In this document: positions 6,650 to 37,047 of the stretch, one piece after another
Numbering within the stretch: position 1 is the first letter of the stretch
Layout: each line of letters begins with the position of its first letter
Source of the DNA: Rhodospirillales bacterium
GTDB lineage: Bacteria > Pseudomonadota > Alphaproteobacteria > Dongiales > Dongiaceae
NCBI GenBank assembly: GCA_009885795.1
Contig: VFKA01000060.1
Span: 1 to 37,047, forward strand
Direction of reading: 5' to 3'
DNA length: 37,047 nt
Notes under the pieces: model-generated
What the model was told of the DNA's origin: nothing
Databases searched by the model: none
The model's input: only the letters and a program-made list of their open reading frames with translations
Made by a program: the position numbers and the translations under genes

Positions 6650-6736
6650 CATCCTTCGAGACGGCCCTACGGGCCTCCTCAGGATGAGGAATATTACCTC
6701 ATGCTGAGGAGCCGCGAAGCGGCGTCTCGAAGCATG
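6650..6736. repeat. REP-type inverted palindrome pair (BIME-like)
   Basis: Two imperfect palindromes in opposite orientation. The left unit (6650-6686) pairs CATCCT with AGGATG and has an inner GGCCC-TAC-GGGCC hairpin. The right unit (6700-6736) pairs CATGCT with AGCATG and has an inner GCCGC-GAA-GCGGC hairpin. Both share the core CTTCGAGACG and CTCCTCAG in inverted orientation. The same unit reappears at 36858-37010. It fills the gap between two convergent genes and starts 3 bp beyond the stop of the lactonase-like gene, so it could act as a bidirectional terminator or mRNA 3' stabiliser (inferred). Confidence 0.8.
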
Positions 6737-23888: not shown

Positions 23889-24051
23889 AAAAAGGGGACG
23901 CTTCCCTTTTCCTTTGGGAATGGAAACTGACGTATTTCCTACATATGTCATTGCCGGGCTTGACCCGGCAATCCATGGTGCCGTGGGCGGAATGGATGCC
24001 CGGCTCGGGGGCCGGGCATGACAAACAACGAAAATGGGGTGCGTCCCCTTT
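23889..24051. repeat. Composite palindromic repeat between mttB-like and PLP genes
   Basis: The outer ends share AAAGGGGACGC in inverted orientation (23891-23901 and 24041-24051), each also folding as a small hairpin. Inside lie ATTGCCGGG-CTTGA-CCCGGCAAT (23950-23972) and ATGCCCGGC-TCGGGG-GCCGGGCAT (23996-24019). Most of the 303-bp gap 23878-24180 is this structure; the rest holds no gene, only the ribosome-binding site of the next gene. The inner pair resembles a common alphaproteobacterial REP. Confidence 0.7.
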
Positions 24052-24180
24052 GTTTGGTGTCGATGGCGGGTGGCTATCGCCCCGTTGCGCCGCCTCGGCC
24101 GCCCCGATACTGTGGCGTGCTTCCTGGAAGGGCGGCGAACCGGCGCCTCCGCCGGCGGTGGGTTAAGGAACGAGTGCGGC

Positions 24181-25680
24181 ATGGCCATCGAAGCCCGAAC
24201 CAGCGACATCGCGGACCGCGCGGCCTATGACAGCGCCGTAGAGCATCTGCGCCGGGCGCGGGTTCTGTTGCCGACGTTCTCGCAATTGGCCGATCCCACG
24301 ACCATCCCCGCCGATATCGCCACGATGCTGGAATCGGTCGAGCCCGACGCGCCGCGCCCGGCCAATCTCTTCCGGGTCCACTGGAACAACGATGCCAATC
24401 GCACCGGCCGGACCGAAATTCCCGGCCACCTGGTTCTGCCCGAGGCTCTGACCGGGACCAAGGCGCGCATCGTCGTGGCGCTGGGCTACCGTTTCCCCCT
24501 CATCGCCGCGCACAAGGTGCTGGCCGCCTATGGCTGCCTGGTGCCGCGCCTCGTCACCGGCCGTTTCGATCCGGCCCGGCATCGGGCGGTGTGGCCGTCG
24601 ACGGGAAACTACTGCCGCGGCGGCGTCGCGATCTCGCGCATCCTCGGCTGCCGCGGCGTCGCCGTCCTGCCGGAAGGGATGAGCGCCGAGCGATTCGCGT
24701 GGCTTGGGCGCTGGGTCGGCGATCCCGGCGATATCGTCCGCACGACGGGATCGGAAAGCAACGTCAAGGAGATCTACGACGCCTGCGCCCGGCTCGCCAA
24801 GGATCCGGCGAACGTCATCCTCAATCAGTTTTCGGAGTTCGGGAATTACCTGGCACACTATCTATGCACCGGAAGGGCGCTCGAGGGCATCTACGAGCAC
24901 CAGCGCACCGGTCAACCGGCCTTGGAACTCGCGGCGTTTGTCGCCGGCACCGGCTCGGCCGGAACGCTGGGCGCCGGCGATTATCTCAAGGAACGCCACC
25001 GCGCCCGGATCGTCGCCGTCGAGCCGATCGAATGCCCGACCCTGCTCTACAACGGCTACGGCGAACACAATATCCAAGGCATCGGCGACAAGCACGTCCC
25101 CTTCATTCACAACGTCATGAACACCGACATGGTGGTGGGCGTGTCCGACAAGGCCAGCGACCGCCTCAATCTCGTGTTCAACAGCGAAGCGGGGCGATCC
25201 TATCTGACCAAGCGCCTGGGTCTCGACCCGGCGCTGGTGCGCGGCCTCGCCGCCTTGGGGTTGTCGGGGATCGCCAACGTGCTGGCCGCGATCAAGACGG
25301 CCAAGCGCCTCGATCTCTCCGAGAATCACGCGATCCTGACGGTGGCGACCGACGGCGCCGAGCTCTATGCCAGCGAGCGCGACAAGGTGGCGGCAGCCCA
25401 CTATCCGAACGGCTTCGACGAAGTCGCGGCCGCCGCGGCGTTCGGCCAGCATGTCGCCGGCATCGCCGACGATCACGTTCTCGAATTGACGCACCGGGAA
25501 AGGCGCCGGATCTTCAATCTCGGCTATTTCACCTGGGTGGAGCAACAAGGTGTTCCCTTGGATGAATTCGACGCTCGGAAAGACCAGGGTTTTTGGCTAG
25601 GGTTGCGCGACCTGCTTCCGGTTTGGGACCGCAGGATCGAGGAATTCAACAGCCGGACCGGCGTGAATCGGCCTGGCTAG
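24181..25680 (+). CDS. Fold-type II PLP-dependent enzyme (cysteine synthase/tryptophan synthase beta-like), unknown substrate
   Basis: A 499-residue protein of the type usually labelled PLP-dependent protein subunit beta. Lys112 in [14 protein letters not shown] is the probable Schiff-base lysine, STGNYCRGG resembles the asparagine loop, and [15 protein letters not shown] is the phosphate-binding Gly-rich loop. The 100-residue N-terminal extension and the C-terminal segment after about 420 are longer than in cysteine synthase. ATG at 24181 is preceded by AAGGAACGAG. It lies between the MttB and CoA-transferase genes, 39 bp before the latter. Elimination or replacement chemistry on an amino acid is likely for the fold; no specific reaction is claimed. 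Confidence 0.8.
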
Positions 25681-25719
25681 GCGGCGGTGGATCGGCGGCG
25701 GAGACGAAAGGGCATCGGC

Positions 25720-26673
25720 GTGGTGGAATCCTATCTGGACCTTCGAGGCAAGATCGCTTCCCGCGACCGGAGCCTGCGCGAGAAGGTGATGTCGCTCGAG
25801 GAGGCGTGCAAGCTGGTTCGCGACGGCGATCACGTGGCGCTCGGCGGCTGCACGTTGTCGCGCACGCCGATGGCGATGATCTGGGCGCTGATCCGTGCCG
25901 GGCGTAAGAACCTCACCGTTTCGCGCAGCATCGTCTCGACCGAAGGCGATTTGCTCTTTGCCTCCGGTGCCGGCGCCCGCATCGTCACGAGCTGGTTCAG
26001 CCAAGGGATCGTCTGGGGCGTGTCGAAGGTGATGCGCCAGTACACCGAGACGGGCCGGGCGAAATTCGAGGAATGGAGCCACATGGCGATGGGCCTGCGC
26101 TACCGCGCCGGCGCCATGGGGGTGCCGTTCATGCCGATGCGCTCGATGATGGGCTCCGACGTGGCCGGGCAACTCGATTCCTGGCGCGAGATGACCTGCC
26201 CCTTCACCGGCGAGAAACTGATGCTGGTCCCGGCGCTCAATCCCGACGTGGCGCTCGTCCACGTGCAGCGCTGCGATCCTTACGGCAATGCGCAGATCGA
26301 CGGTCTCCAGTTCATGGACATCGATATCCCGATGGCGGCGACGCGCGTCATTCTGACGACCGAGCGCATCGTCTCCAACGACCAGATAAGGCGCGCGCCC
26401 GACCAGACCAAAATCCCTTTCTTCACCGTCGATGCCGTGGTCGAGGTGCCGTTCGGCTCGGCTCCGCACGAGTGCTACGGCCTGTACGAACCGTATTTCG
26501 GGCATCTCGATTCCTATGCCGAGGCGACCAAGCGCGACCCCGAGGCTGGCGTGAAACAGTATCTCGACCGCCACTATCATGGCCCCAAGAACTGGGCGGA
26601 GTATCTGGGACTTCTCGGCATCGAAAACATGCTCGATGCCTCCCGACGGGGTCGGAGCATCCACGATGACTGA
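25720..26673 (+). CDS. CoA-transferase subunit alpha, glutaconate CoA-transferase (GctA)-like
   Basis: A 317-residue alpha subunit of a class I CoA-transferase. The N-terminal region LREKVMSLEEACKLVRDGDH leads into VALGGCTLSRTPMAM, the usual GG-containing CoA-binding segment, and RCDPYGNAQIDG is the conserved G-N-A-Q element. GTG at 25720 (with AAAGG about 7 bp upstream) is preferred; GTG at 25687 would add an Arg-rich extension. The gene overlaps the beta subunit by 8 bp. The complex would move CoA between carboxylates, or in the related IpdAB family hydrolyse a cyclic diketone CoA ester. Which one cannot be told. Confidence 0.88.
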   Translation: MVESYLDLRGKIASRDRSLREKVMSLEEACKLVRDGDHVALGGCTLSRTPMAMIWALIRAGRKNLTVSRSIVSTEGDLLFASGAGARIVTSWFSQGIVWGVSKVMRQYTETGRAKFEEWSHMAMGLRYRAGAMGVPFMPMRSMMGSDVAGQLDSWREMTCPFTGEKLMLVPALNPDVALVHVQRCDPYGNAQIDGLQFMDIDIPMAATRVILTTERIVSNDQIRRAPDQTKIPFFTVDAVVEVPFGSAPHECYGLYEPYFGHLDSYAEATKRDPEAGVKQYLDRHYHGPKNWAEYLGLLGIENMLDASRRGRSIHDD

Positions 26674-27445
26674 CCCCTCGCCCGGCGCCGGCTATACGGC
26701 CTCCGAATTGCTGGCGGTGATGAGCGGCCGCCTGCTCGAGGACGGCCAGATCGTGTTCGCGGGCGTCGGCATCCCGCTGCTGGCGGCGACGCTGGCGCAG
26801 CGGTTGCACGCACCCGGCCTCACCATCCTCTTCGAGGGCGGGACCATCGGCCCCTTCATCGTGCCGGGCGAGCTGCCGCCATCGACCAACGAACAGCGCT
26901 GCACGCGCCGGGCCAACATGCTGCTGACGATCACCGACACACTGCTGTTGCTGCAGCGCGGCTATGTCGACGTCGGCTTCATGGGCGGCGCGCAGATCGA
27001 CATCCACGGCAATCTGAACAGCTCCTTCATCGGCGACCCCCAGCGCCCCACCACGCGTCTGCCCGGCTCGGGCGGCGGCAACGATATCGCCAGCCTCACC
27101 CGCATGATCGTGGCGATGAAACACGAGAAACGCCGATTCGTGGACAAGGTCGATTTCATCACCAGCCCCGGATTCCTCGCGGGCGGCGAGAGCCGTTCGG
27201 CATCCGGCCTGATCGCCGGCGGCATGTACCGCGTCGTCACCGATTTGGCGATCCTGGGATTCGACGAGGCGAGCCGGCGGATGCGTATCGACTCGCTGCA
27301 TCCCGGCGTGACGCTTCAACAGGTGCAGGACAATACCGGCTTCGAACTGTTGCGCGCCCCCACCATAGGCGCCACCGAACCGCCCAGCGCGCGCGAGCTT
27401 GCCGTGCTGCGCGAATTCGACCCGGATCGCCTGTACACGGCCTAG
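26666..27445 (+). CDS. CoA-transferase subunit beta, GctB-like
   Basis: A 259-residue beta subunit, partner of the preceding gene, starting at ATG 26666 inside its 3' end (8-bp overlap). ILFEGGTIGP carries the glutamate expected of catalytic class I subunits. RGYVDVGFMGGAQIDIHGNL and GSGGGNDIASL are further family segments. With the alpha subunit it would form a cytosolic heterodimeric or heterotetrameric enzyme. A palindromic repeat follows, and the LLM oxidoreductase begins 191 bp further on. Whether the glutamate supports transferase or hydrolase activity is uncertain. Confidence 0.88.
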   Translation: MTDPSPGAGYTASELLAVMSGRLLEDGQIVFAGVGIPLLAATLAQRLHAPGLTILFEGGTIGPFIVPGELPPSTNEQRCTRRANMLLTITDTLLLLQRGYVDVGFMGGAQIDIHGNLNSSFIGDPQRPTTRLPGSGGGNDIASLTRMIVAMKHEKRRFVDKVDFITSPGFLAGGESRSASGLIAGGMYRVVTDLAILGFDEASRRMRIDSLHPGVTLQQVQDNTGFELLRAPTIGATEPPSARELAVLREFDPDRLYTA

Positions 27446-27492
27446 ATTCGATGTTTCTCTGTCACACAGTGCTGCCGAATCGAATCGCTGCT

Positions 27493-27591
27493 CCCCCTCA
27501 CCCTTCCCTCTCCCCCCGATTGGGGGGAGAGGGTTGCGAAGGGTTGCGCGGGCCCGGTTGCCCGCGCTTACCCGAAGCTGGGTGAGGGGGG
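27493..27591. repeat. Nested inverted repeats between CoA-transferase and LLM genes
   Basis: Outer arms are CCCCCTCACCC (27493-27503) and GGGTGAGGGGG (27580-27590). Inside are a perfect 12-bp stem CCCTCTCCCCCC-GATT-GGGGGGAGAGGG (27506-27533) and GCGCGGG / CCCGCGC (27546-27552 and 27561-27567). This resembles a widespread proteobacterial intergenic repeat. It could end the CoA-transferase transcript. Confidence 0.75.
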
Positions 27592-27636
27592 CACGACCGA
27601 CCCGACGGACACCGCCCCAAACCACACGGCACAGTC

Positions 27637-28587
27637 ATGAAAAAAACCGCCCCCACCTTCGGCATCGCGATGCGCAATTTCACGGCCTATCCGGAGATGC
27701 CGGATGCGGCCGGACTGCTCGACTACGCCGTGCGCATGGAGGCGCTGGGCTATGAATCGCTGTGGGTCTGGGATCACATCCTGCTCGGTGTCGAGCCGAA
27801 TTTCCCGATCCTCGACTCGCTGTCGCTGCTGACCGCGGTGGCGGCGCGCACGACGCGCATTCGCCTCGGCACCGGAATCCTGGTGCTGGCGCTGCGCAAT
27901 CCCGTGGTTCTCGCCAAGCAGCTTGCGACCTTGGATATCATCTCCAACGGCCGTCTTATCCTCGGAGTGGCGTCCGGCTGGTACAAACGCGAGTTCGACG
28001 CCGTCGGCATCCCCTTCGAGCGGCGCGGCAAGATCGTCGATCAGAGCCTCGAGATTCTGACGCGGCTTTGGCAGGAGGAGCGCGTCACCGGCGACTATCC
28101 GCCCTATACGTTGCGCAATGCCGTCATGTACCCGAAGCCCGTGCAGAAGCCGCGGCCGCCGATTTTGGTCGGCGGTTACGCCGACCCGGTGCTGAAGCGT
28201 GTCGCGACCAAGAGCGACGGCTGGCTCACCTATTTCTACACGCCGGCGAGCTTCACCAAGTCGTGGAACAAGGTCCGGCAATTCGCCGAGGAAGCAGGCC
28301 GCGATCCCGATACGCTCGCGACCTGCAACCAGCTTCCGATCATGGTCGGAAAATCCAAGGAATCCGTCGCGGGGCCGCTCAACGAGTGGCTGCGCAAGGA
28401 ATGGGATTATTCGGAGTGGAGCGAATCCTCGCCCGACAGCGCGGTCATGGGAACGGTCGACGAGTGCGTCGAACAGCTTCGCGAACACCTCAAGGTGGGC
28501 GTGCAGCGGATCATCTTCGTGCCGTACAAATACGAGATGGAGCAGGCGGAGATCATCGCCAAGGAGATCATTCCGCGGCTGCGATGA
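27637..28587 (+). CDS. LLM-class flavin/F420-dependent oxidoreductase
   Basis: A 316-residue luciferase-like monooxygenase. FGIAMRNF starts the first barrel strand, GYESLWVWDHI and RIRLGTGILVLALRNPVVLAKQ are typical, and LGVASGWYKREFDAVGIPF is the G-x-G-W-x-x-E-F element common to F420-dependent members. Such enzymes use F420H2 or FMNH2. F420 is favoured here because the gene ends in a 20-bp tail-to-tail overlap with fbiC of the F420 operon. The ATG at 27637 follows a palindromic gap. The substrate is not predictable; the neighbouring CoA-transferase hints at a CoA-linked catabolic step, but only from position. Confidence 0.85.
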   Translation: MKKTAPTFGIAMRNFTAYPEMPDAAGLLDYAVRMEALGYESLWVWDHILLGVEPNFPILDSLSLLTAVAARTTRIRLGTGILVLALRNPVVLAKQLATLDIISNGRLILGVASGWYKREFDAVGIPFERRGKIVDQSLEILTRLWQEERVTGDYPPYTLRNAVMYPKPVQKPRPPILVGGYADPVLKRVATKSDGWLTYFYTPASFTKSWNKVRQFAEEAGRDPDTLATCNQLPIMVGKSKESVAGPLNEWLRKEWDYSEWSESSPDSAVMGTVDECVEQLREHLKVGVQRIIFVPYKYEMEQAEIIAKEIIPRLR

Positions 28588-30943
28588 TGGCGTCCGCCCT
28601 CGGGCGCCGGCGCACCGGTCCGAAGACGGGCTCCACCAGCGGCGAGGCGGCCATCGACGCTTCGATCCGCTCGGAGGACGGCGTTCCGTAGAGCATCGTG
28701 CGCTGGCGCGGCATCCGGCCGAGCCCGCGAATGAACGCCTCCATCTCCGGCGGCGCCAGTTCCTGGCCGTGCTCGGCCCCGGCGGCGCGCGAGATCGATT
28801 CGTTCATCAGCGTTCCGCCGAGATCGTTGGCGCCGGAATCGAGGCAGGCGGCGGCGCCATCGCGGCCCATCTTCACCCATGACACTTGGATGTTCGTGAC
28901 ATGGGGGTGGAGCACGAGGCGGGCAACGGCATGCATCAAGATCGTCTCGCGGAAGGTCGGCCCGCGCCGCGCGCGGCCCTTCAGGTAGATCGGCGCCTCC
29001 ATAGGCACGAAGGGCAGCGGCACGAACTCGGTGATGCCGCCGGTGCGCACCTGCAGCGACCGGATCGCCATGAGATGGCGCGCCCAGTGGAGCGGCCGGT
29101 CCACATGCCCGAACATGATGGTCGCGGTCGTGCGAAGCCCCACCGCGTGAGCGGTCTCGACGACCTCCAGCCACTCTTCCGTGTCGAGCTTGTCCGGACA
29201 GATGATTGCGCGCACCTCGTCATCCAGGATCTCGGCCGCGGTTCCTGGCAGCGAGCCCAGGCCCGCCGCCTTCAGCTCACGGAGATAGCAATCGACCGAT
29301 AGACCGAGCGTGCGCGCCCCTTGCAGTATCTCAAGCGGCGAGAACGCATGGATGTGGATCGCCGGAACCGCCGCCTTCACCGCCCGGCAAATGTCGAGAT
29401 AAGTGGTGCCGGTGTAGTCAGGATGGATGCCTCCTTGCATGCAGATCTCGGTGGCGCCCCGTGCCCACGCCTCTTGCGCGCGGCGCGCGATTTCGGCGAG
29501 GTCCACCTCATAGGCGCGCCCGCGTAGGCGCTCGGCGCTCCGGCCCTTGGAAAAGGCGCAGAACCCGCAATGATAGGTGCAGAGGTTGGTGTAGTTGACG
29601 TTGCGGTTGACGACATAGGTGACGACATCGCCCTTGACCGATCGGCGCAAGCAATCGGCGGCGGCGCGCACGGAATCGAACTCATCGCCGCGGGCCTGAA
29701 ACAGCCTGACGATCTCCTCGGTCTCAAGGGATGCGCCATCGAGCGCGCGATCGAGTGTCCGGGCGATCTCGCGGCCGGCGCTTCCCGGCCGAGGGCAGCC
29801 GAGTGACGGCGGCGTTGTCGTGGCGCCCGGCGTCCAAGAATCGGCGCGGGCGAGCCCATCGCTATCGATCGCTTGCATGACCTTGGCGCGCAAAGCCGGG
29901 GCAAGCCATCGCTCGCGGTTCAGCGCATAGGCGGGATAAATCGCCAACCTAGGCGCGAGTTCCTTGCCGGCCGCGCGCGTCGCCTGTCTCAACAAGTCGA
30001 GATGCGGCCACGGCGCTTCCGGGTTCACATGGTCCGGCGTCACCGGCGACACTCCGCCCCAATCGTTGATGCCGGCATCCAGCAGCAGCGCCAGCGCCTC
30101 GGGACGCAGATTGGGCGGCGTCTGGATGTTCATCGCCGGCCCGAAGATGAGCCGCGCCACGGCGATGGTCCAAAGCTGGTCCTCGACTGGCGGCTCGGGC
30201 GCCTCCGCCATTCTCGTTCCCGGCTTGGCGCGGAAGTTCTGGACGATGATCTCTTGGATGTGGCCGTGGTATTCGTGCATGTCGCGCAGAGCGAGCAGCG
30301 CTTCGATGCGCTCCTTACGCGTTTCGCCGATTCCGATCAGGATGCCGGAGGTGAAGGGCACGGCAGCCTCGCCCGCGAGGCGTATCGTCTCCAGCCGTAC
30401 CGCGGGGTGCTTGTCCGGCGATCCGTGATGGGGGCCTCCCCTATCGCAGAGGCGCGGGGCGGCGCTTTCCAGCATCAGCCCCTGCGACACCGAAACCGCG
30501 CGCAAGGCCGCGATATCTCCTTCCGTCATGACCCCCGGATTGACGTGCGGCAGCAGCCCGGTCTCGTCGAGCACGCGCCGCGCGGCTTCGGCCAGATAGG
30601 AAATCGTGGCCGCGTGGCCGAGCTCGGCCAGGGCCTCGCGCGCCGCGCGATAGCGCAGCTCCGGTTTGTCGCCCAGCGTGAACAGCGCCTCCGTGCACCC
30701 GGCGCGCGCGCCGGCGCGCGCGATCGCAAGAACCTCGTCGATTGTAAGATAAGCCCGCTCGCCCTGGCGGGGCGATCGCGCGAACGTGCAGTAGTTGCAG
30801 ACGTCGCGGCAGAGCCGGGTCAGCGGAATGAAGACCTTGGGGGAGTAGGTGATGACCCGGCCATGGCCGAGGTCGCGCAGCTCTCTCGCCGCCGCCATCA
30901 GGTCCGGCAGCCTGCCGGCCGACAATCGCTCCAATTCCTGCAT
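28568..30943 (-). CDS. fbiC: FO synthase, CofG-CofH fusion (FbiC)
   Basis: Makes the deazaflavin FO, the chromophore of coenzyme F420, from a ribityl-aminouracil intermediate and tyrosine by two radical SAM reactions. The 791-residue fusion has a CofG half with the [4Fe-4S]-binding CX3CX2C at Cys45/49/52 (CRDVCNYC) and a CofH half with Cys455/459/462 (CTYHCGFC). Further motifs are PHVNPGVMTEGD in CofG and CMQGGIHPDYTG in CofH. ATG at 30943 (GGAAGG upstream) is the start that fits family length. It lies 37 bp after cofC, last in the operon, and its 3' end overlaps the convergent LLM gene by 20 bp. Confidence 0.96.
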   Translation of the reverse strand: MQELERLSAGRLPDLMAAARELRDLGHGRVITYSPKVFIPLTRLCRDVCNYCTFARSPRQGERAYLTIDEVLAIARAGARAGCTEALFTLGDKPELRYRAAREALAELGHAATISYLAEAARRVLDETGLLPHVNPGVMTEGDIAALRAVSVSQGLMLESAAPRLCDRGGPHHGSPDKHPAVRLETIRLAGEAAVPFTSGILIGIGETRKERIEALLALRDMHEYHGHIQEIIVQNFRAKPGTRMAEAPEPPVEDQLWTIAVARLIFGPAMNIQTPPNLRPEALALLLDAGINDWGGVSPVTPDHVNPEAPWPHLDLLRQATRAAGKELAPRLAIYPAYALNRERWLAPALRAKVMQAIDSDGLARADSWTPGATTTPPSLGCPRPGSAGREIARTLDRALDGASLETEEIVRLFQARGDEFDSVRAAADCLRRSVKGDVVTYVVNRNVNYTNLCTYHCGFCAFSKGRSAERLRGRAYEVDLAEIARRAQEAWARGATEICMQGGIHPDYTGTTYLDICRAVKAAVPAIHIHAFSPLEILQGARTLGLSVDCYLRELKAAGLGSLPGTAAEILDDEVRAIICPDKLDTEEWLEVVETAHAVGLRTTATIMFGHVDRPLHWARHLMAIRSLQVRTGGITEFVPLPFVPMEAPIYLKGRARRGPTFRETILMHAVARLVLHPHVTNIQVSWVKMGRDGAAACLDSGANDLGGTLMNESISRAAGAEHGQELAPPEMEAFIRGLGRMPRQRTMLYGTPSSERIEASMAASPLVEPVFGPVRRRPRADAIIAAAE

Positions 30944-30980
30944 GAGAGCCTTCCCACCGCGGCGACAACGCGCTTGGACT

Positions 30981-31652
30981 CTAGGTGGCGGCCAGCCTTC
31001 CGGCAATGCCGCTGTCGAGAAGAAAGGCATGCGTGCGGGTCGATCGCGGGCGAGCGAGAAAGTTCGCGAGGTCGCCGGGCCGGTCGATATCGAGGGCGAG
31101 GCCCGGCAGCGACAGGACCAAAGGCTCGATCCCCGCGTCGCGCGCGGCGCGCCGATGGGCGGCGAAGCTGTCGTGGCCGAAATGCAGCGCCAGTGCGTCC
31201 GGTGGCGAGGCTGCGAGCGCGTTCGTGCCGCCCTCGCCCAGCGCCGGAACCAGTGTCGCGGCCGGCGCCCGACCATGCGCGGCCAGGATCGCCTCGATGT
31301 CCCGGGCGCTCGCCAGAGGCACATCGGCGGGAATGGCGATCATGCCTTCGGCGCCTTCGCGAACCAGCGCGGCCGCGGCGAGCCTGACGGCGCCGCTTTG
31401 GCCCGCGGCCGGGCGCTCCCCAAGCCACCTCGCGCCGGCCCGGCGCGCGATGCCGCCGACCCGGTCGTCGCCGCTCACGATCACGATCCCGGCCAGCCCC
31501 GAGGCCGCCGCAAGCGCGGCCATCACATCATCCAGCATGACCTCTGCGAGCGCGCGCCGCTCGTCCGGCGTCAAGACCGATGCGAGGCGCTGCTTCGGCC
31601 GCGCGAACCCCTTTATGGGAACGACGGCCCAGAGGCGCCGAGACTCGCTCAT
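30981..31652 (-). CDS. cofC: 2-phospho-L-lactate (or PEP/3-phosphoglycerate) guanylyltransferase
   Basis: Nucleotidyltransferase of 223 residues (CofC/FbiD). It joins GTP to a three-carbon phosphate (2-phospholactate, phosphoenolpyruvate or 3-phosphoglycerate, depending on organism) for F420 side-chain assembly. Visible motifs are the N-terminal AVVPIKGFARPKQRLA, a nucleotide-binding loop, and IAIPADVPLAS with the metal-binding aspartate. ATG at 31652 overlaps the cofD stop as ATGA (31649-31652). Substrate choice cannot be read from these motifs and decides which F420 is made. Confidence 0.93.
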   Translation of the reverse strand: MSESRRLWAVVPIKGFARPKQRLASVLTPDERRALAEVMLDDVMAALAAASGLAGIVIVSGDDRVGGIARRAGARWLGERPAAGQSGAVRLAAAALVREGAEGMIAIPADVPLASARDIEAILAAHGRAPAATLVPALGEGGTNALAASPPDALALHFGHDSFAAHRRAARDAGIEPLVLSLPGLALDIDRPGDLANFLARPRSTRTHAFLLDSGIAGRLAAT

Positions 31653-32581
31653 CCCGCCAACCGCGCCGCGAAGCCGAGTACCGCGCGCGCCAGCGCCTTC
31701 TTCGCCTCGAGCGTATCCATGAGCGTGGCGGTCGCCAGCGTTGGAATGTCGAGATCCGCCGCATCCCGCTCGTCCAGCACGAAGCCGTCGATGAGGCCGG
31801 CGTAGTGCCGGGCGATCGCGGCCGGCGTCGGGGCGAGGCCCAATTCGCGCATGATCTTCGCGGTCGGCCCCTTCACCGCCTGTCCGGCGACGATCGGCGA
31901 TATGGCGATGACCGGCGCCGCGCTGTCGGCGATGGCGAACCTCAACGCCGGTATGGCCAGAATCGGATCGATACTGAGAAAGGGGTTCGACGGGCAGATC
32001 ACGATCGCGGCGAGGTCCGGTTGCCGCAGCGCGCGGAGCGCCGCCGGGCCGGGGCGCGCGCCGGCCGCCCCTTCGTAGACGAAGCCGCGCACGACCGGTT
32101 CGCAAGCCCGCTCGACGAAGTAGCGCTGGAACGGCAGGCGGCCTCCCTCGGTCTCGACCATGGTGCGCACCGGATCGTCGCTCGCCGACGCCAGCAGGAC
32201 GCGTAACCCCAGGCGCCGCGCGAGATCGATGTTGACCTCGGTCAGGCTCTCGCCGGCGCGTAAGCGCCGGGTCCGCTCGACATGGGTGGCGAGGTCGCGG
32301 TCGCCGAGGCGAAACCAAGTCTCGCCGCCGAGCCGCTCCAAGGCCGCCATGAAGTGCCAGGTCTCTTCGGCGAGACCCCATCCGGCTTGCGTGTTGGCCA
32401 CGCCGGCCAGCGTATACATGAGCGTGTCGAAATCGGGACAGATGGTAAGGCCCAGATGCTCGAAATCGTCGCCCGGATTGGCGACGATCGTGAGGCGATC
32501 GGGTTCGAGGATTCGGGCAAGGCCGAGCGCCAACTTGGCGCCCCCTATTCCCCCTGAGAGCGCGACGACCGGACCGGTCAT
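31649..32581 (-). CDS. cofD: 2-phospho-L-lactate transferase
   Basis: Joins the activated three-carbon unit to FO to give F420-0 or its dehydro form (CofD/FbiA, 310 residues). VVALSGGIGGAKLALGLA at the N-terminus is the phosphate/nucleotide-binding loop, ANPGDDFEHLGL and ICPDFDTLMYTL give the conserved metal and substrate aspartates, and ICPSNPFLSIDPIL is a family hallmark. ATG at 32581 overlaps the cofE stop as ATGA (32578-32581), and its own stop overlaps cofC, so all three are tightly coupled. Confidence 0.95.
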   Translation of the reverse strand: MTGPVVALSGGIGGAKLALGLARILEPDRLTIVANPGDDFEHLGLTICPDFDTLMYTLAGVANTQAGWGLAEETWHFMAALERLGGETWFRLGDRDLATHVERTRRLRAGESLTEVNIDLARRLGLRVLLASASDDPVRTMVETEGGRLPFQRYFVERACEPVVRGFVYEGAAGARPGPAALRALRQPDLAAIVICPSNPFLSIDPILAIPALRFAIADSAAPVIAISPIVAGQAVKGPTAKIMRELGLAPTPAAIARHYAGLIDGFVLDERDAADLDIPTLATATLMDTLEAKKALARAVLGFAARLAG

Positions 32582-33339
32582 CGAAAGAGGTCCCGTTCTC
32601 TCGGCCGCTGCAGCGCCTTGGCGTCGGCATCGGAGGTTTCCCATTCGAGGCCGCGCACGAGCACGAGTGGCAGGCCTTCGGCGGCCTGGCCCATCACTTG
32701 GGTCGCGGCGGCGGCAACCTGGTCGGCGACGGCGACCTCGGTCACTTCGAGGGGCCGGCCGAACAGATCCCTATCGCCCACGAGGGAGCGCAGCGCCGGC
32801 AGGCCGGCGACGCCGATGGCGATGCCGACGATGCCGTTGCGCCAGGCGCGCCCGACGCTGTCGGCGATGACGATCCCGAGCCTGGCGCCGAAACGCCGCT
32901 GCCAGCGATCCCGCAACCGGGCGCAGCTGGCATCGGGATCCTTCGGCAGCAGGAGCACCAGGCCGTCGCGCCCGACATTCGAGCGGTCGACACCGGCGTT
33001 GGCGGCAATGATTCCCAGCTTGTGCGCCGCGATGATGGTGCCGGGGCGGTGGCGAAGGATCTCGTCGGATTCGGAGAGGATGATTTCGACCAGGCGCGGG
33101 TCCTTGCCGGTCGCGGCGGCGAGCTCGACCGCGCGGGACGAGGGCGTGACGCCGGCGAGATCGACGGTGCGCCCCTCGGCCTTGGACACGACCTTCTGCG
33201 CCACGACGAACACATCACCGTCCCTAGGACAAAGTTCCGCCTTGAAGATCGCGTCGCCGAGGATCGCGGCCAGGTCGTCGCCCGGCCCGATCAGGGGAAT
33301 ACCCGCGACACCTTGAAGCGTCAGCGCCGCAATGCCCAT
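32578..33339 (-). CDS. cofE: Coenzyme F420-0:L-glutamate ligase, single domain
   Basis: Adds gamma-linked glutamates to F420-0 (CofE, 253 residues). Starting at ATG 33339, it shows IPLIGPGDDLAAIL, VVAQKVVSKAEGR, SESDEILRHRPG, and IADSVGRAWRNGIVGIAIGV, all family segments. It lacks the C-terminal nitroreductase-like domain of mycobacterial FbiB that reduces dehydro-F420; no such gene is visible here. It overlaps npdG by 19 bp and cofD by 4 bp. Confidence 0.94.
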   Translation of the reverse strand: MGIAALTLQGVAGIPLIGPGDDLAAILGDAIFKAELCPRDGDVFVVAQKVVSKAEGRTVDLAGVTPSSRAVELAAATGKDPRLVEIILSESDEILRHRPGTIIAAHKLGIIAANAGVDRSNVGRDGLVLLLPKDPDASCARLRDRWQRRFGARLGIVIADSVGRAWRNGIVGIAIGVAGLPALRSLVGDRDLFGRPLEVTEVAVADQVAAAATQVMGQAAEGLPLVLVRGLEWETSDADAKALQRPRERDLFR

Positions 33340-34013
33340 GAAGCCGGATCCGGGTCCGCGACCCGCGTGCCGACGAGGTCGCCGGCGATTTTGAACCCCG
33401 CGCCCTCCACCTTGTATCGCCGGTTGATGCCGATGAGTACGGAGGCCAGAGCCTCGGCGGCCACGGAATTGGCGAGCGGGCCGGCGTGAAGGCCGCGCAT
33501 GCCGGCCGCCTGGACCAGCGCGATGGCCACGCCACGCGCCGCCTCGTCGTCGCCCGACACCAGCACGTCGCCCTCGATCGGGCCGGCGGATTGGAGCTTG
33601 GCGGCGGCCACGGTATGGAAGGCGGAGACCACCCTTGCCTCCGGCCCGAGCGCAACTTGCGTGGCTTGCGCGGCCGAGCCGGCCTGGGGCATGCGCACCG
33701 TCGATACCTTGGGCGGGACGATCGGCACCGTGGTGTCGATGACGATCTTGCCGCGCGCGGCCGGGGCGATATCGGCGAGGACCGGATCGCGGTGGGTGTA
33801 GGGAATGGCGAGCACGATGATGTCGGCGGCCTCCGCGGCCTGGCGGTTGGCGAGGCCCTTGACCGCGGCGCCCAATTGCCGGGCGGCTTCCATAGCCGCA
33901 TCGGCCGAGCGCGAGCCGATGATGATGGGGTAGCCGGCGGCGGCCCACCTCGAGGCAAGGCCGCGGCCCAGCGCGCCGGTTCCGCCGATGATCGCAAGCG
34001 TCGGGAGGGTCAC
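33321..34013 (-). CDS. npdG: F420-dependent NADP oxidoreductase
   Basis: Transfers hydride between NADP(H) and F420 (NpdG/Fno, 230 residues), regenerating F420H2 for partner enzymes such as the LLM oxidoreductase. The Rossmann motif is GGTGALG (10-16), followed by IIIGSRSADAA with the Arg/Ser pair that suits NADP. IVLAIPYTHRDPVL and VVSAFHTVAAAKLQ are typical. GTG at 34013, one base after the pxpA-like stop. It overlaps cofE by 19 bp, confirming operon membership. Confidence 0.92.
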   Translation of the reverse strand: MTLPTLAIIGGTGALGRGLASRWAAAGYPIIIGSRSADAAMEAARQLGAAVKGLANRQAAEAADIIVLAIPYTHRDPVLADIAPAARGKIVIDTTVPIVPPKVSTVRMPQAGSAAQATQVALGPEARVVSAFHTVAAAKLQSAGPIEGDVLVSGDDEAARGVAIALVQAAGMRGLHAGPLANSVAAEALASVLIGINRRYKVEGAGFKIAGDLVGTRVADPDPASWALRR

Positions 34014-34014
34014 C

Positions 34015-34791
34015 TCAGGCGAGATCCATCTCGGTCAGGGGCACGACGGCGACGCCCGCCGCCTCCAGCGCCTGGCGCACCGCCCCGGCGAGGCGAACCG
34101 CGCTCGGCTCGTCGCCATGGACGCAGACGGTATGGATGCGCCGCTCGATCCGCTTGCCGTTGCGCGAGACGATGACGCCTTCCTTAGCCATGCGCACGAC
34201 GCGCTCGGCGGCGACGGCCGGATCGTGGATGACGGAGCCGGGAATCTTGCGCGAGGTGAGGTTGCCGTCATCCTCGTAGAGGCGGTCGGCGAAGCCTTCC
34301 TTGGCCACCGGCAGACCGAGCTTGTCGCCGGCGCGCTCCATCTCGGAGCCGGCGAGGGCGACGTAGATGATCGAGGGGTCGATGGTCTTGATCGCGCGGC
34401 CGATGGCGAGCGCCAGCTCCGGCGATTCGGCGGCCATGTTGTTGAGGGCGCCATGGGCCTTGACGTGGGTGACCTTGGCGCCGGCATAGGCCGCCATGGC
34501 CTGGAGCGCGCCGATCTGGTAGGCCACCATGTATTCGACGTCGCTGGCCGGCATGTCGATGCGCCGGCGCCCGAAGCCCCAGAGATCGTTGAAGCCCGGA
34601 TGGGCGCCGATGCTGACGCCGGCCTCGGCCGCGGCGCGGACCCAGCGCTGCATGGTCACGGGGTCGCCGGCATGGAAGCCGCAGGCGATGCTGGCCGAGC
34701 GGACGATCTTCATCAGGCCCGCGTCGTCGCCCATGTCGTAGGCGCCGAAGCCCTCGCCCATGTCGGCATTGAGGTTGATCTTGGCGGTCAT
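34015..34791 (-). CDS. pxpA: 5-oxoprolinase subunit A / LamB-YcsF family protein
   Basis: A 258-residue member of the LamB/YcsF family, whose best known member, PxpA, works with PxpB and PxpC to open 5-oxoproline to glutamate. Residues seen: NADMGEGFG (8-16), CGFHAGDP (His40), IGAHPGFNDLWGFGRR and VKAHGALNN. No pxpB or pxpC is in the window, so the role may be different or the partners lie elsewhere. It is the first gene of the F420 operon, one base from npdG. 34792-34870 is its likely promoter region. Confidence 0.9.
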   Translation of the reverse strand: MTAKINLNADMGEGFGAYDMGDDAGLMKIVRSASIACGFHAGDPVTMQRWVRAAAEAGVSIGAHPGFNDLWGFGRRRIDMPASDVEYMVAYQIGALQAMAAYAGAKVTHVKAHGALNNMAAESPELALAIGRAIKTIDPSIIYVALAGSEMERAGDKLGLPVAKEGFADRLYEDDGNLTSRKIPGSVIHDPAVAAERVVRMAKEGVIVSRNGKRIERRIHTVCVHGDEPSAVRLAGAVRQALEAAGVAVVPLTEMDLA

Positions 34792-35425
34792 GTGTTTCTT
34801 GCGTGTCCGTTGGGGGCGTGGAGCGGGACGGTACTATGGCGCGCCGGTTGTGGGCAATCGGGATTGGTTGGCTGTCAGCTGTCAGCTATCAGCTATCAGC
34901 CGTCGGTCGGAAGGGGATATCCCAGGGTAGATTTCGGAGGTTCAATTCGGGGATGGCCCGGCGGGTTCCCGGACCGCCTCGCGGCTTCTCGATTCCCCGC
35001 CCGAAATTAGGCAATTCGGCGGCAATTTCGAGCCAAGCCTTTGTCCGGTATGGGCATTTTGGCCCAAATCGCCGGTGCGCGATTCTGTTTTTCGGCGGAA
35101 CAACCCCATGAAGACTTTTCTCCCTTGAAACCACCGCGGAAAACCGCGGCTTTCCCGTTCGGCGGCCGCTCGACCACGTGGCGCCGTCTCCCAAGAGCCT
35201 TATTCACGATGTCCAAGAACCGAAACGGAACCAATGGAAATCATAGGACATTTATCCATGAAAGTCAAGCGGGATCGAAGACAGGCAGTAGGCTGACTGT
35301 CGTGCCGGATCGAGGCCGCGCAGACCCGAACGCACGATCCGCAATCCAAATCCGGCGGTTGCGCGGCACCCTAGGACGAGTGCATAGAGTGGTGCGCCGG
35401 CAACCGCCCGCCTCCGGAGGAATTC
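34792..35425. other. Long intergenic region without a convincing gene
   Basis: 634 bp between the divergent F420 operon and the oxygenase gene. It contains four tandem 7-bp units (34873-34900), a hairpin CCGCGG-AAAA-CCGCGG (35134-35149), and GGAGG (35411-35415) before the oxygenase start. Open frames on both strands lack family motifs. Candidate -35/-10 elements could not be fixed with confidence. Confidence 0.5.
34873..34900. repeat. Tandem heptanucleotide repeat
   Basis: Four head-to-tail copies: TGTCAGC twice, then TATCAGC twice, followed by a degenerate fifth unit CGTCGGT. Such short repeats occur at variable copy number. It lies about 80 bp upstream of the pxpA-like start on the opposite strand. 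Confidence 0.85.
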
Positions 35426-36082: not shown

Positions 36083-36381
36083 CGGGCCCCGTCGACGTCA
36101 AGGGGGATCGCGGTGATGGTGGGATCGGTCGACCGCGCCTGCGTTTGGTCGTTGCCGTGTTGCGTCACGGGATGACGCCATACGAATTAAGTGCACTGTC
36201 ACCGAAATACCCCGGGCAAGAGGCGCGCACGACCTGACCCTCATCCTTCGACAGGCTCAGGATGAGGCGAGGGCTGGTTCGAATCGGCCGCTATCGCGGT
36301 CTTGCGGCAAGACCAAGGACGGTCCAATGTGACGGGGTCACGCCGATTCATCCGAGGACTGTCAATTCAAGAGGGGTCAAG
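36083..36381. other. Intergenic region with a dyad repeat
   Basis: 299 bp without a convincing gene. CCTCATCCT (36239-36247) pairs with AGGATGAGG (36259-36267), loop of 11 bases. The stretch around 36183-36209, with GTGCACTGTCACC, recalls a dispersed repeat I associate with REP-linked transposases, from memory only. GAGGGG (36371-36376) serves the VOC gene. Confidence 0.5.
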
Positions 36382-36768
36382 ATGCTTGCCTACATCATGG
36401 TTGGAACCAACAACGTGAAGCGCGCCGCGAAGTTCTACGACGCCGCGCTGGCGCCGCTCGGCTTCGCGCGGAGCGGGGGCGACAACAACTACATCGGTTA
36501 CGCGCCGAAAAACGCTCCGAAGAAATCCGAGTTCTACGTGACCAAACCGTACAACAAGAAGAAGGCGACGTTCGGCAACGGCACGATGATATCTCTCGTG
36601 GCGAAATCGCGCCGCGCGGTGGACGCGTTCCACGCGGCCGCGCTCGCGAACGGCGGCACGAACGAAGGCAAGCCGGGGCCCCGCCCCGCCGGCGGCAGCA
36701 ATTACGTGGCCTACGCCCGCGACCCGGACGGCAACAAGATCTGTGCCTACCTCGCCAAGGCGAAGTAG
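36382..36768 (+). CDS. VOC-family (glyoxalase/bleomycin resistance-like) protein
   Basis: A 128-residue single VOC domain. It begins MLAYIMVGTNNVKRAAKFYD, with GLNxKxxxFY-type paired beta-alpha-beta units, and ends in the typical DPDGNKICAYL with the metal-binding-type motif. GAGGGG ends 5 bp before ATG 36382. Members include glyoxalases and ring-cleaving dioxygenases, and this length suits a non-specific YaeR-like member. No function is assigned. A REP fragment follows directly. Confidence 0.88.
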   Translation: MLAYIMVGTNNVKRAAKFYDAALAPLGFARSGGDNNYIGYAPKNAPKKSEFYVTKPYNKKKATFGNGTMISLVAKSRRAVDAFHAAALANGGTNEGKPGPRPAGGSNYVAYARDPDGNKICAYLAKAK

Positions 36769-36790
36769 GACCATCGAAGGAAGGGCGCTC

Positions 36791-36823
36791 CTCATGGTTC
36801 GAGACGGGCCTGCGGCCCTCCTC
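36791..36823. repeat. Truncated REP unit
   Basis: Shares the REP core (TTCGAGACG, inner GGGCC-TGC-GGCCC, CTCCTCA) but stops where the inverted-repeat element begins, so its right arm (expected near CCATGAG) is missing. It looks interrupted by insertion. Confidence 0.55.
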
Positions 36824-37046
36824 AGAGGTTGTGAAAGAATTGCATCGGCTTGGTTGCGTCCTTCGAGACGCGCCCCTTCCAGCCTTCGCAGCCGAAGCGG
36901 CTGCTTCGGCGGAGTAGGCTCGGGGCGCTCCTCAGGACGAGGTTAAGCCTTTATGGCACAAAGAAAAGACCTCATGCTGAGGAGGCCGCGCAGCGGCCGT
37001 CTCGAAGCACACAGGAACCGCGAACCAGCATTCTTTCACAACCTCT
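36824..37046. mobile_element. MITE-like element with 17-bp terminal inverted repeats
   Basis: AGAGGTTGTGAAAGAAT at 36824-36840 is matched perfectly in inverted orientation at 37030-37046, bounding 223 bp. There is no gene inside. The interior is a REP pair: one at 36858-36942 with an inner hairpin GCCGAAGC-GGCT-GCTTCGGC (36891-36910), the other at 36970-37010 (GGCCGC-GCA-GCGGCC). The left flank ends TCA and the right flank begins TC before the window stops, consistent with a 3-bp target duplication TCA, not proved. Family not identified. Confidence 0.6.
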
Positions 37047-37047
37047 C

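Follow-up and report, generated by a model that had tools for sequence, protein, structure and literature searches.

A probable MITE with a REP-dimer body that interrupts REPs at one fixed base in an alphaproteobacterial genome

We describe a short repeated element that is most probably a species-private MITE, with a REP dimer as its body, moved in trans by a REP-targeting transposase that was not found here. The element lies at the end of the window, by which we mean the whole stretch of DNA analysed (contig C95, 37,047 bp), in an alphaproteobacterial genome of 3.46 Mb in 103 contigs; the contig stops two bases past it. A preliminary description of the window had proposed a MITE-like element interrupting a REP. 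This proposal is borne out by the existence of other copies, by twelve junctions that break REPs at one base, and by the presence of the missing REP arm in the contig that probably follows.

Structure of the element

Alignment of copies and a search of the genome place the element at positions 36825-37045 on the plus strand (221 bp, or 179 bp without a 42-bp hairpin). It is bounded by perfect terminal inverted repeats of 16 bp, GAGGTTGTGAAAGAAT at 36825-36840 on the plus strand and its counterpart at 37030-37045 on the minus strand. These repeats had originally been given as 17 bp, and perfect inverted arms of 17 nt are indeed present at 36824-36840 and 37030-37046; the true terminal repeat is nevertheless one pair shorter, because the base outside GAGG varies in older copies, which assigns the 17th base pair (A36824/T37046) to the target, as the A of the left TCA and the T of the right TC. 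When the last 1048 bp of the window were resampled 2000 times at first order, a perfect inverted repeat of at least 16 nt arose in 2 cases, and given the multi-copy evidence a chance origin of the inverted ends is untenable.

Between the terminal repeats lies the REP pair that the preliminary description had recognised. Copy comparison delimits REP 1, with a loop enlarged by the 42-bp hairpin, at 36859-36942 on the plus strand, and REP 2, in the opposite orientation, at 36970-37009 on the minus strand, two inverted REPs being the mark of a REPIN. The spacer between them (36943-36969, plus strand) is specific to the element, with no match outside element copies in the genome search, and this privacy argues for a genuine 180-bp unit, distinct from an ordinary REP dimer. 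The ORF listing contains no reading frame of at least 80 aa inside the element. The region folds far better than shuffled sequences (z -6.7), as expected for REP dimers, and an Rfam search returned no match near gathering scores. The element thus has the properties of a MITE, being short and non-coding, with perfect 16-bp ends, some ten dispersed copies and a target-site duplication.

The left end abuts the 5' part of an interrupted REP (CTCCTCATGGTTCGAGACGGGCCTGCGGCCCTCCTCA, 36788-36824, plus strand), correctly noted at the outset as a truncated unit, which has the layout of 187 intact REPs in the genome. The left target-site copy, TCA, occupies 36822-36824 on the plus strand, and CTCA ends all six left junctions of the young copies; the right copy is represented by its first two bases, TC (37046-37047, plus strand), and the next base is G in contig C24 and A at each of the remaining five right junctions. 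Elsewhere in the window, an intact REP dimer is found at 6650-6736 and an intact short REP (CATCCTTCGACAGGCTCAGGATG) at 36242-36264. One REP thus occurs in the genome with either a long or a short loop, and its arms covary.

Copies and target sites

Further copies had been put forward as a check on the element, and they exist: its ends occur 14 times exactly in the genome and 17 times at up to 2 mismatches. Alignment resolves about ten copies, comprising six junction sets of young copies and four older ones internal to contigs (C42 has two, C96 one and C25 a truncated one). The left junctions of the young copies lie in C95, at the end of C40, and in C41, C54, C69 and C23, and the right junctions in C24, at the end of C25, in C26, at the start of C40, and in C60 and C94, all twelve being located at, or a few hundred bases from, contig ends. 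The left halves differ by 0-3 bases per 95-116, a near-identity that indicates recent spread. The element has no match in the other 16 genomes of the same order.

The eleven contigs named for the young junctions end in or just past the element; C40 (4144 bp) carries it at both ends. Nesting of this kind has a practical consequence, in that short-read assemblies break at the repeat; gene order and REP arms may be used for joining further contigs.

Each of the twelve young junctions interrupts a REP, with base and orientation constant throughout. On the left, the junction falls after CTCA inside the REP (6/6), and on the right the 3' REP arm resumes after TC(A/G) (6/6), with TCA at five of the six right junctions and TCG at the window copy. 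Since intact REPs account for about 0.2% of the genome length, twelve hits out of twelve imply a strong choice of target. Orientation relative to the REP is identical in all six young copies (two-sided chance 0.03). Among 99 intact REPs listed, 96 have complementary stem arms, and by arm type the left junction set corresponds one for one to the right set (one CATGG/CCATG, one CATGC/GCATG and four CATCC/GGATG; chance about 0.03-0.05); the CATGG arm is that of C95 and the CCATG arm that of C24, the only pair of young junctions joined by gene order.

The older copies occupy a different site. The C96 copy is preceded by ATTCCGGC-GTGC and followed by GTGC-GCCGGAAT; for one C42 copy the flanks are ATTCCGGC-GAAA and GAAA-GCCG. 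Both 4-bp duplications are exact, and GTGC and GAAA form the loop of a palindrome with an 8-bp stem. The other C42 copy is flanked by CTTC and TTTC, and the truncated C25 copy adjoins the same kind of stem. In all, three of the four older copies sit in the 4-nt loop of this second palindrome, two of them with exact duplications. Its stem and loop size fit those of the CGTC-1 REPs (PMC3733652). With young copies in REPs and three of the older ones in the second palindrome, the family favours hairpin repeats of two kinds.

The neighbouring contig and the rejoined site

Position 37047 is the end of C95, and the base that follows was read from the inferred neighbour, C24. The two contigs overlap by 109 identical bases; the end of C25 overlaps equally well, which makes the overlap alone indecisive. 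Window genes 24022-34833, the last of which encodes 5-oxoprolinase subunit PxpA, and the molybdenum-hydroxylase operon with which C24 begins are found in the same order and orientation, about 3 kb apart, on one contig of the relative G002, and none of the other candidate contigs shows gene order of this type. In the relatives G004 and G008, gene order 3' of the VOC-like gene is not conserved. The G002 gene order and the complementarity of the REP arms together indicate that C24 is the contig following C95.

C24 continues ...CCTC followed by TCGCCATGAGGGAG, so that the window would continue TC-GCCATGAGGGAG, and the missing REP arm CCATGAGG is present in C24 directly after the G. When the element is taken out together with one target copy, the remaining sequence, CTCCTCATGGTTCGAGACGGGCCTGCGGCCCTCCTCACCATGAGG, folds as one REP. 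A missing arm near CCATGAG had been predicted from the window sequence alone and is present in C24 to the letter; the prediction of A after position 37047 failed, the base in C24 being G. The expected TCA duplication consequently holds for its TC part and not for its third base (TCA on the left, TCG on the right of the window copy). G is a normal variant at this REP position, occurring in 15 of the 99 listed intact REPs, and the TCA/TCG difference may represent either a later point mutation or a 2-bp TC duplication with the A at the element's edge.

The broken REP is preceded by an ORF (36382-36768, plus strand) whose name, VOC/glyoxalase-like protein, was read from the sequence; the protein has orthologues at 74-78% identity in two relatives and no NCBIfam family match. 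The element starts 56 bp past this gene. If the C95-C24 join is right, 34 bp separate the element from the start codon of the large-subunit gene in C24, a distance that would put a long stable hairpin in the leader of that gene. An effect on the flanking genes is conceivable from this arrangement.

Source of transposition

Three features suggest that a DDE transposase acts in trans: the fixed target base, the target duplications and the private inverted ends. We therefore favour a MITE of about 180 bp without a gene, composed of 16-bp inverted ends around two facing REPs and a private spacer, which would be mobilised by a trans-acting enzyme, probably of the DDE type, with a preference for REP hairpins. 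Insertion into REPs would follow directly on TCA, where the 3' stem arm has its inner edge, with duplication of 3 bp; older copies would have entered the 4-nt loop of another palindromic repeat, with duplication of 4 bp. The window copy would have split the REP that separates the VOC-like gene from the molybdenum-hydroxylase large-subunit gene of C24, and would afterwards have gained the 42-bp hairpin in its first REP.

Four observations count against this reading. No transposase with matching ends was found in this genome or elsewhere among the sequences searched, the duplication at the window copy is inexact (TCA/TCG), duplications measure 3 bp in young copies and 4 bp in older ones, and symmetric 16-bp ends alone do not predict a fixed orientation.

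The first of these rests on several searches, which answer in the negative the earlier call for a parent transposon with these ends, be it in the genome itself, in 385 Alphaproteobacteria or in 84,980 species. In the element's own genome no parent with matching ends was detected at up to 3 mismatches, none of the PF01609 and PF01797 transposase genes is bounded by the element's ends, and none of six DDE_Tnp_1 matches has ends like them. The 385 alphaproteobacterial genomes gave scattered single matches, with no inverted pair at insertion-sequence distance among the matches listed, and the exact ends plus the next three bases gave 13 single matches in the 84,980 species, where we estimate about 15 by chance. 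No parent was recovered by its ends in 61 relatives; viral contigs gave single matches among those listed, treated as chance, and plasmids gave no match. Many MITEs are orphans, and the autonomous partner could be extinct, absent from the strain or equipped with diverged ends.

In the IS1031 group of the IS5 family, ends begin with GAG and the 3-bp target is TNA. The GAGG ends and the TCA of the young copies agree with these features, and the GTGC and GAAA of the older copies disagree. As for a parent from this group, no DDE transposase gene bounded by the element's ends was found in the genome.

An unlikely alternative is spread of the REPIN type, in which a RAYT, a single-strand Y1 transposase, moves the REP dimer and the terminal repeats are passive flanks. 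The body of the element is an inverted REP dimer, the genome has four Y1_Tnp genes, and single-strand insertion typically yields a fixed strand and position. The older copies, however, have direct target duplications, and the private 16-bp ends and spacer travel with the dimer. Moreover, inverted pairs of other repeats, and not of the element's REP, flank at least two Y1_Tnp genes: GGTGACAGTGCACTTAAT flanks the gene at G000:C58 (L094, about 1410 and 2193), and GGGGTCAGGTCTTGCC that at G000:C89. These border repeats at two of the four genes, together with the duplications, make RAYT-driven spread less likely. No border repeat pair was recognised at the remaining two genes, near which the element's REP occurs only as single copies some hundred bases away; at none of the four Y1_Tnp genes was it recognised as the gene's own flanking repeat.

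The Y1_Tnp gene at G000:C58 is RAYT-like, and GGTGACAGTGCACTTAAT also occurs in the window (36186-36203, minus strand). The repeat that bounds the gene at G000:C89 is a perfect inverted repeat beginning GGGGTCAGGTCTTGCC (L091, 1419 and 2317), unrelated to the element's REP.

Gene conversion, by which a single ancestral REP insertion would have been copied onto other REPs, is improbable. It would account for the base and orientation shared by all six young copies, but their common left flank extends over only about 4 nt (CTCA) and the host REPs vary in arm type and loop (short CGACAGGCTCA versus long CGAGACGG...CTCCTCA), both of which speak against it; the right half, moreover, comes in two sequence types, both of them in REPs. 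There is an equally slender chance that the element's REPs are themselves part of the targeting, the element's REP pair and the target REP being recognised jointly, hairpin to hairpin, by a host enzyme; this would produce a fixed base and orientation without a parent transposon, and spread by nesting REPs in REPs. That the element is instead an immobile old repeat marking assembly breaks, its REP junctions artefacts of contig ends, is very hard to credit: most junctions are contig ends and no parent was found, but four copies, that of the window among them, are contained entire within contigs, the few differences among left halves make the spread recent, and gene order backs the C95-C24 join.

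Relation to known systems

Both REP-containing MITEs and insertion sequences interrupting REPs at a single base have been described before. QMITE2 of Coxiella burnetii is a MITE of 150-190 bp with terminal inverted repeats and a REP inside, mostly situated in 3' untranslated or intergenic regions; its duplications measure 7-11 nt and vary in sequence, and IS1111 uses its REP as a target (PMC5896051). By description, our MITE resembles it in size, terminal inverted repeats and REP content, but differs in that the element itself lands in REPs, at a 3-bp TCA (PMC5896051). REP-targeting insertion sequences include ISPsy8 (IS3), ISRm22 (IS4), ISPpu9/10 (IS110) and IS1397; each copy of ISPsy8, ISRm22 and ISPpu9/10 breaks the REP at one fixed nucleotide, and ISPsy8 duplicates 3 bp (PMC1525189). 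The element is like ISPsy8 in breaking the REP at one nucleotide with 3-bp repeats, whereas these insertion sequences carry a transposase gene and the element has none (PMC1525189).

CGTC-1 of H. neapolitanus and GTAG-15 of A. variabilis are REP dimers framed by palindromes, and the element likewise holds a REP dimer in a constant palindromic frame; in contrast to it, the available excerpt of the source describes no target duplication or nested REP target for them (PMC3733652). REPINs are inverted REP dimers that form the repeated unit and are linked to RAYTs (PMC3116915). The element shares this unit, but its duplications and separate 16-bp ends suggest another mechanism (PMC3116915).

Our literature search found no description of a MITE inserted in REPs in Alphaproteobacteria, nor of a REP-dimer MITE landing in REPs. 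The element joins a REP-carrying MITE with the REP as an exact landing site of mobile DNA. Should the REPs of the element contribute to target choice, REP families could promote their own expansion, one layer nested in another.

A 42-bp hairpin in REP 1

The 42-bp hairpin (CAGCCTTCGCAGCCGAAGCGGCTGCTTCGGCGGAGTAGGCTC, 36880-36921, plus strand) lies inside the TTC^G loop of REP 1 and is carried by the window copy alone, which is therefore a repeat within a repeat within a repeat. The other element copies read CCCCTTCGGGG at this place and provide a natural empty site for the insertion; any duplication left by it is no longer than the 2 bp TC. With 0-1 changes, the 42-bp sequence recurs at this TTC^G loop position in at least 13 further REPs, whose stems are different. 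The sequence may be a tiny mobile hairpin in its own right; it is nearly invariant across the at least 14 REPs that contain it overall.
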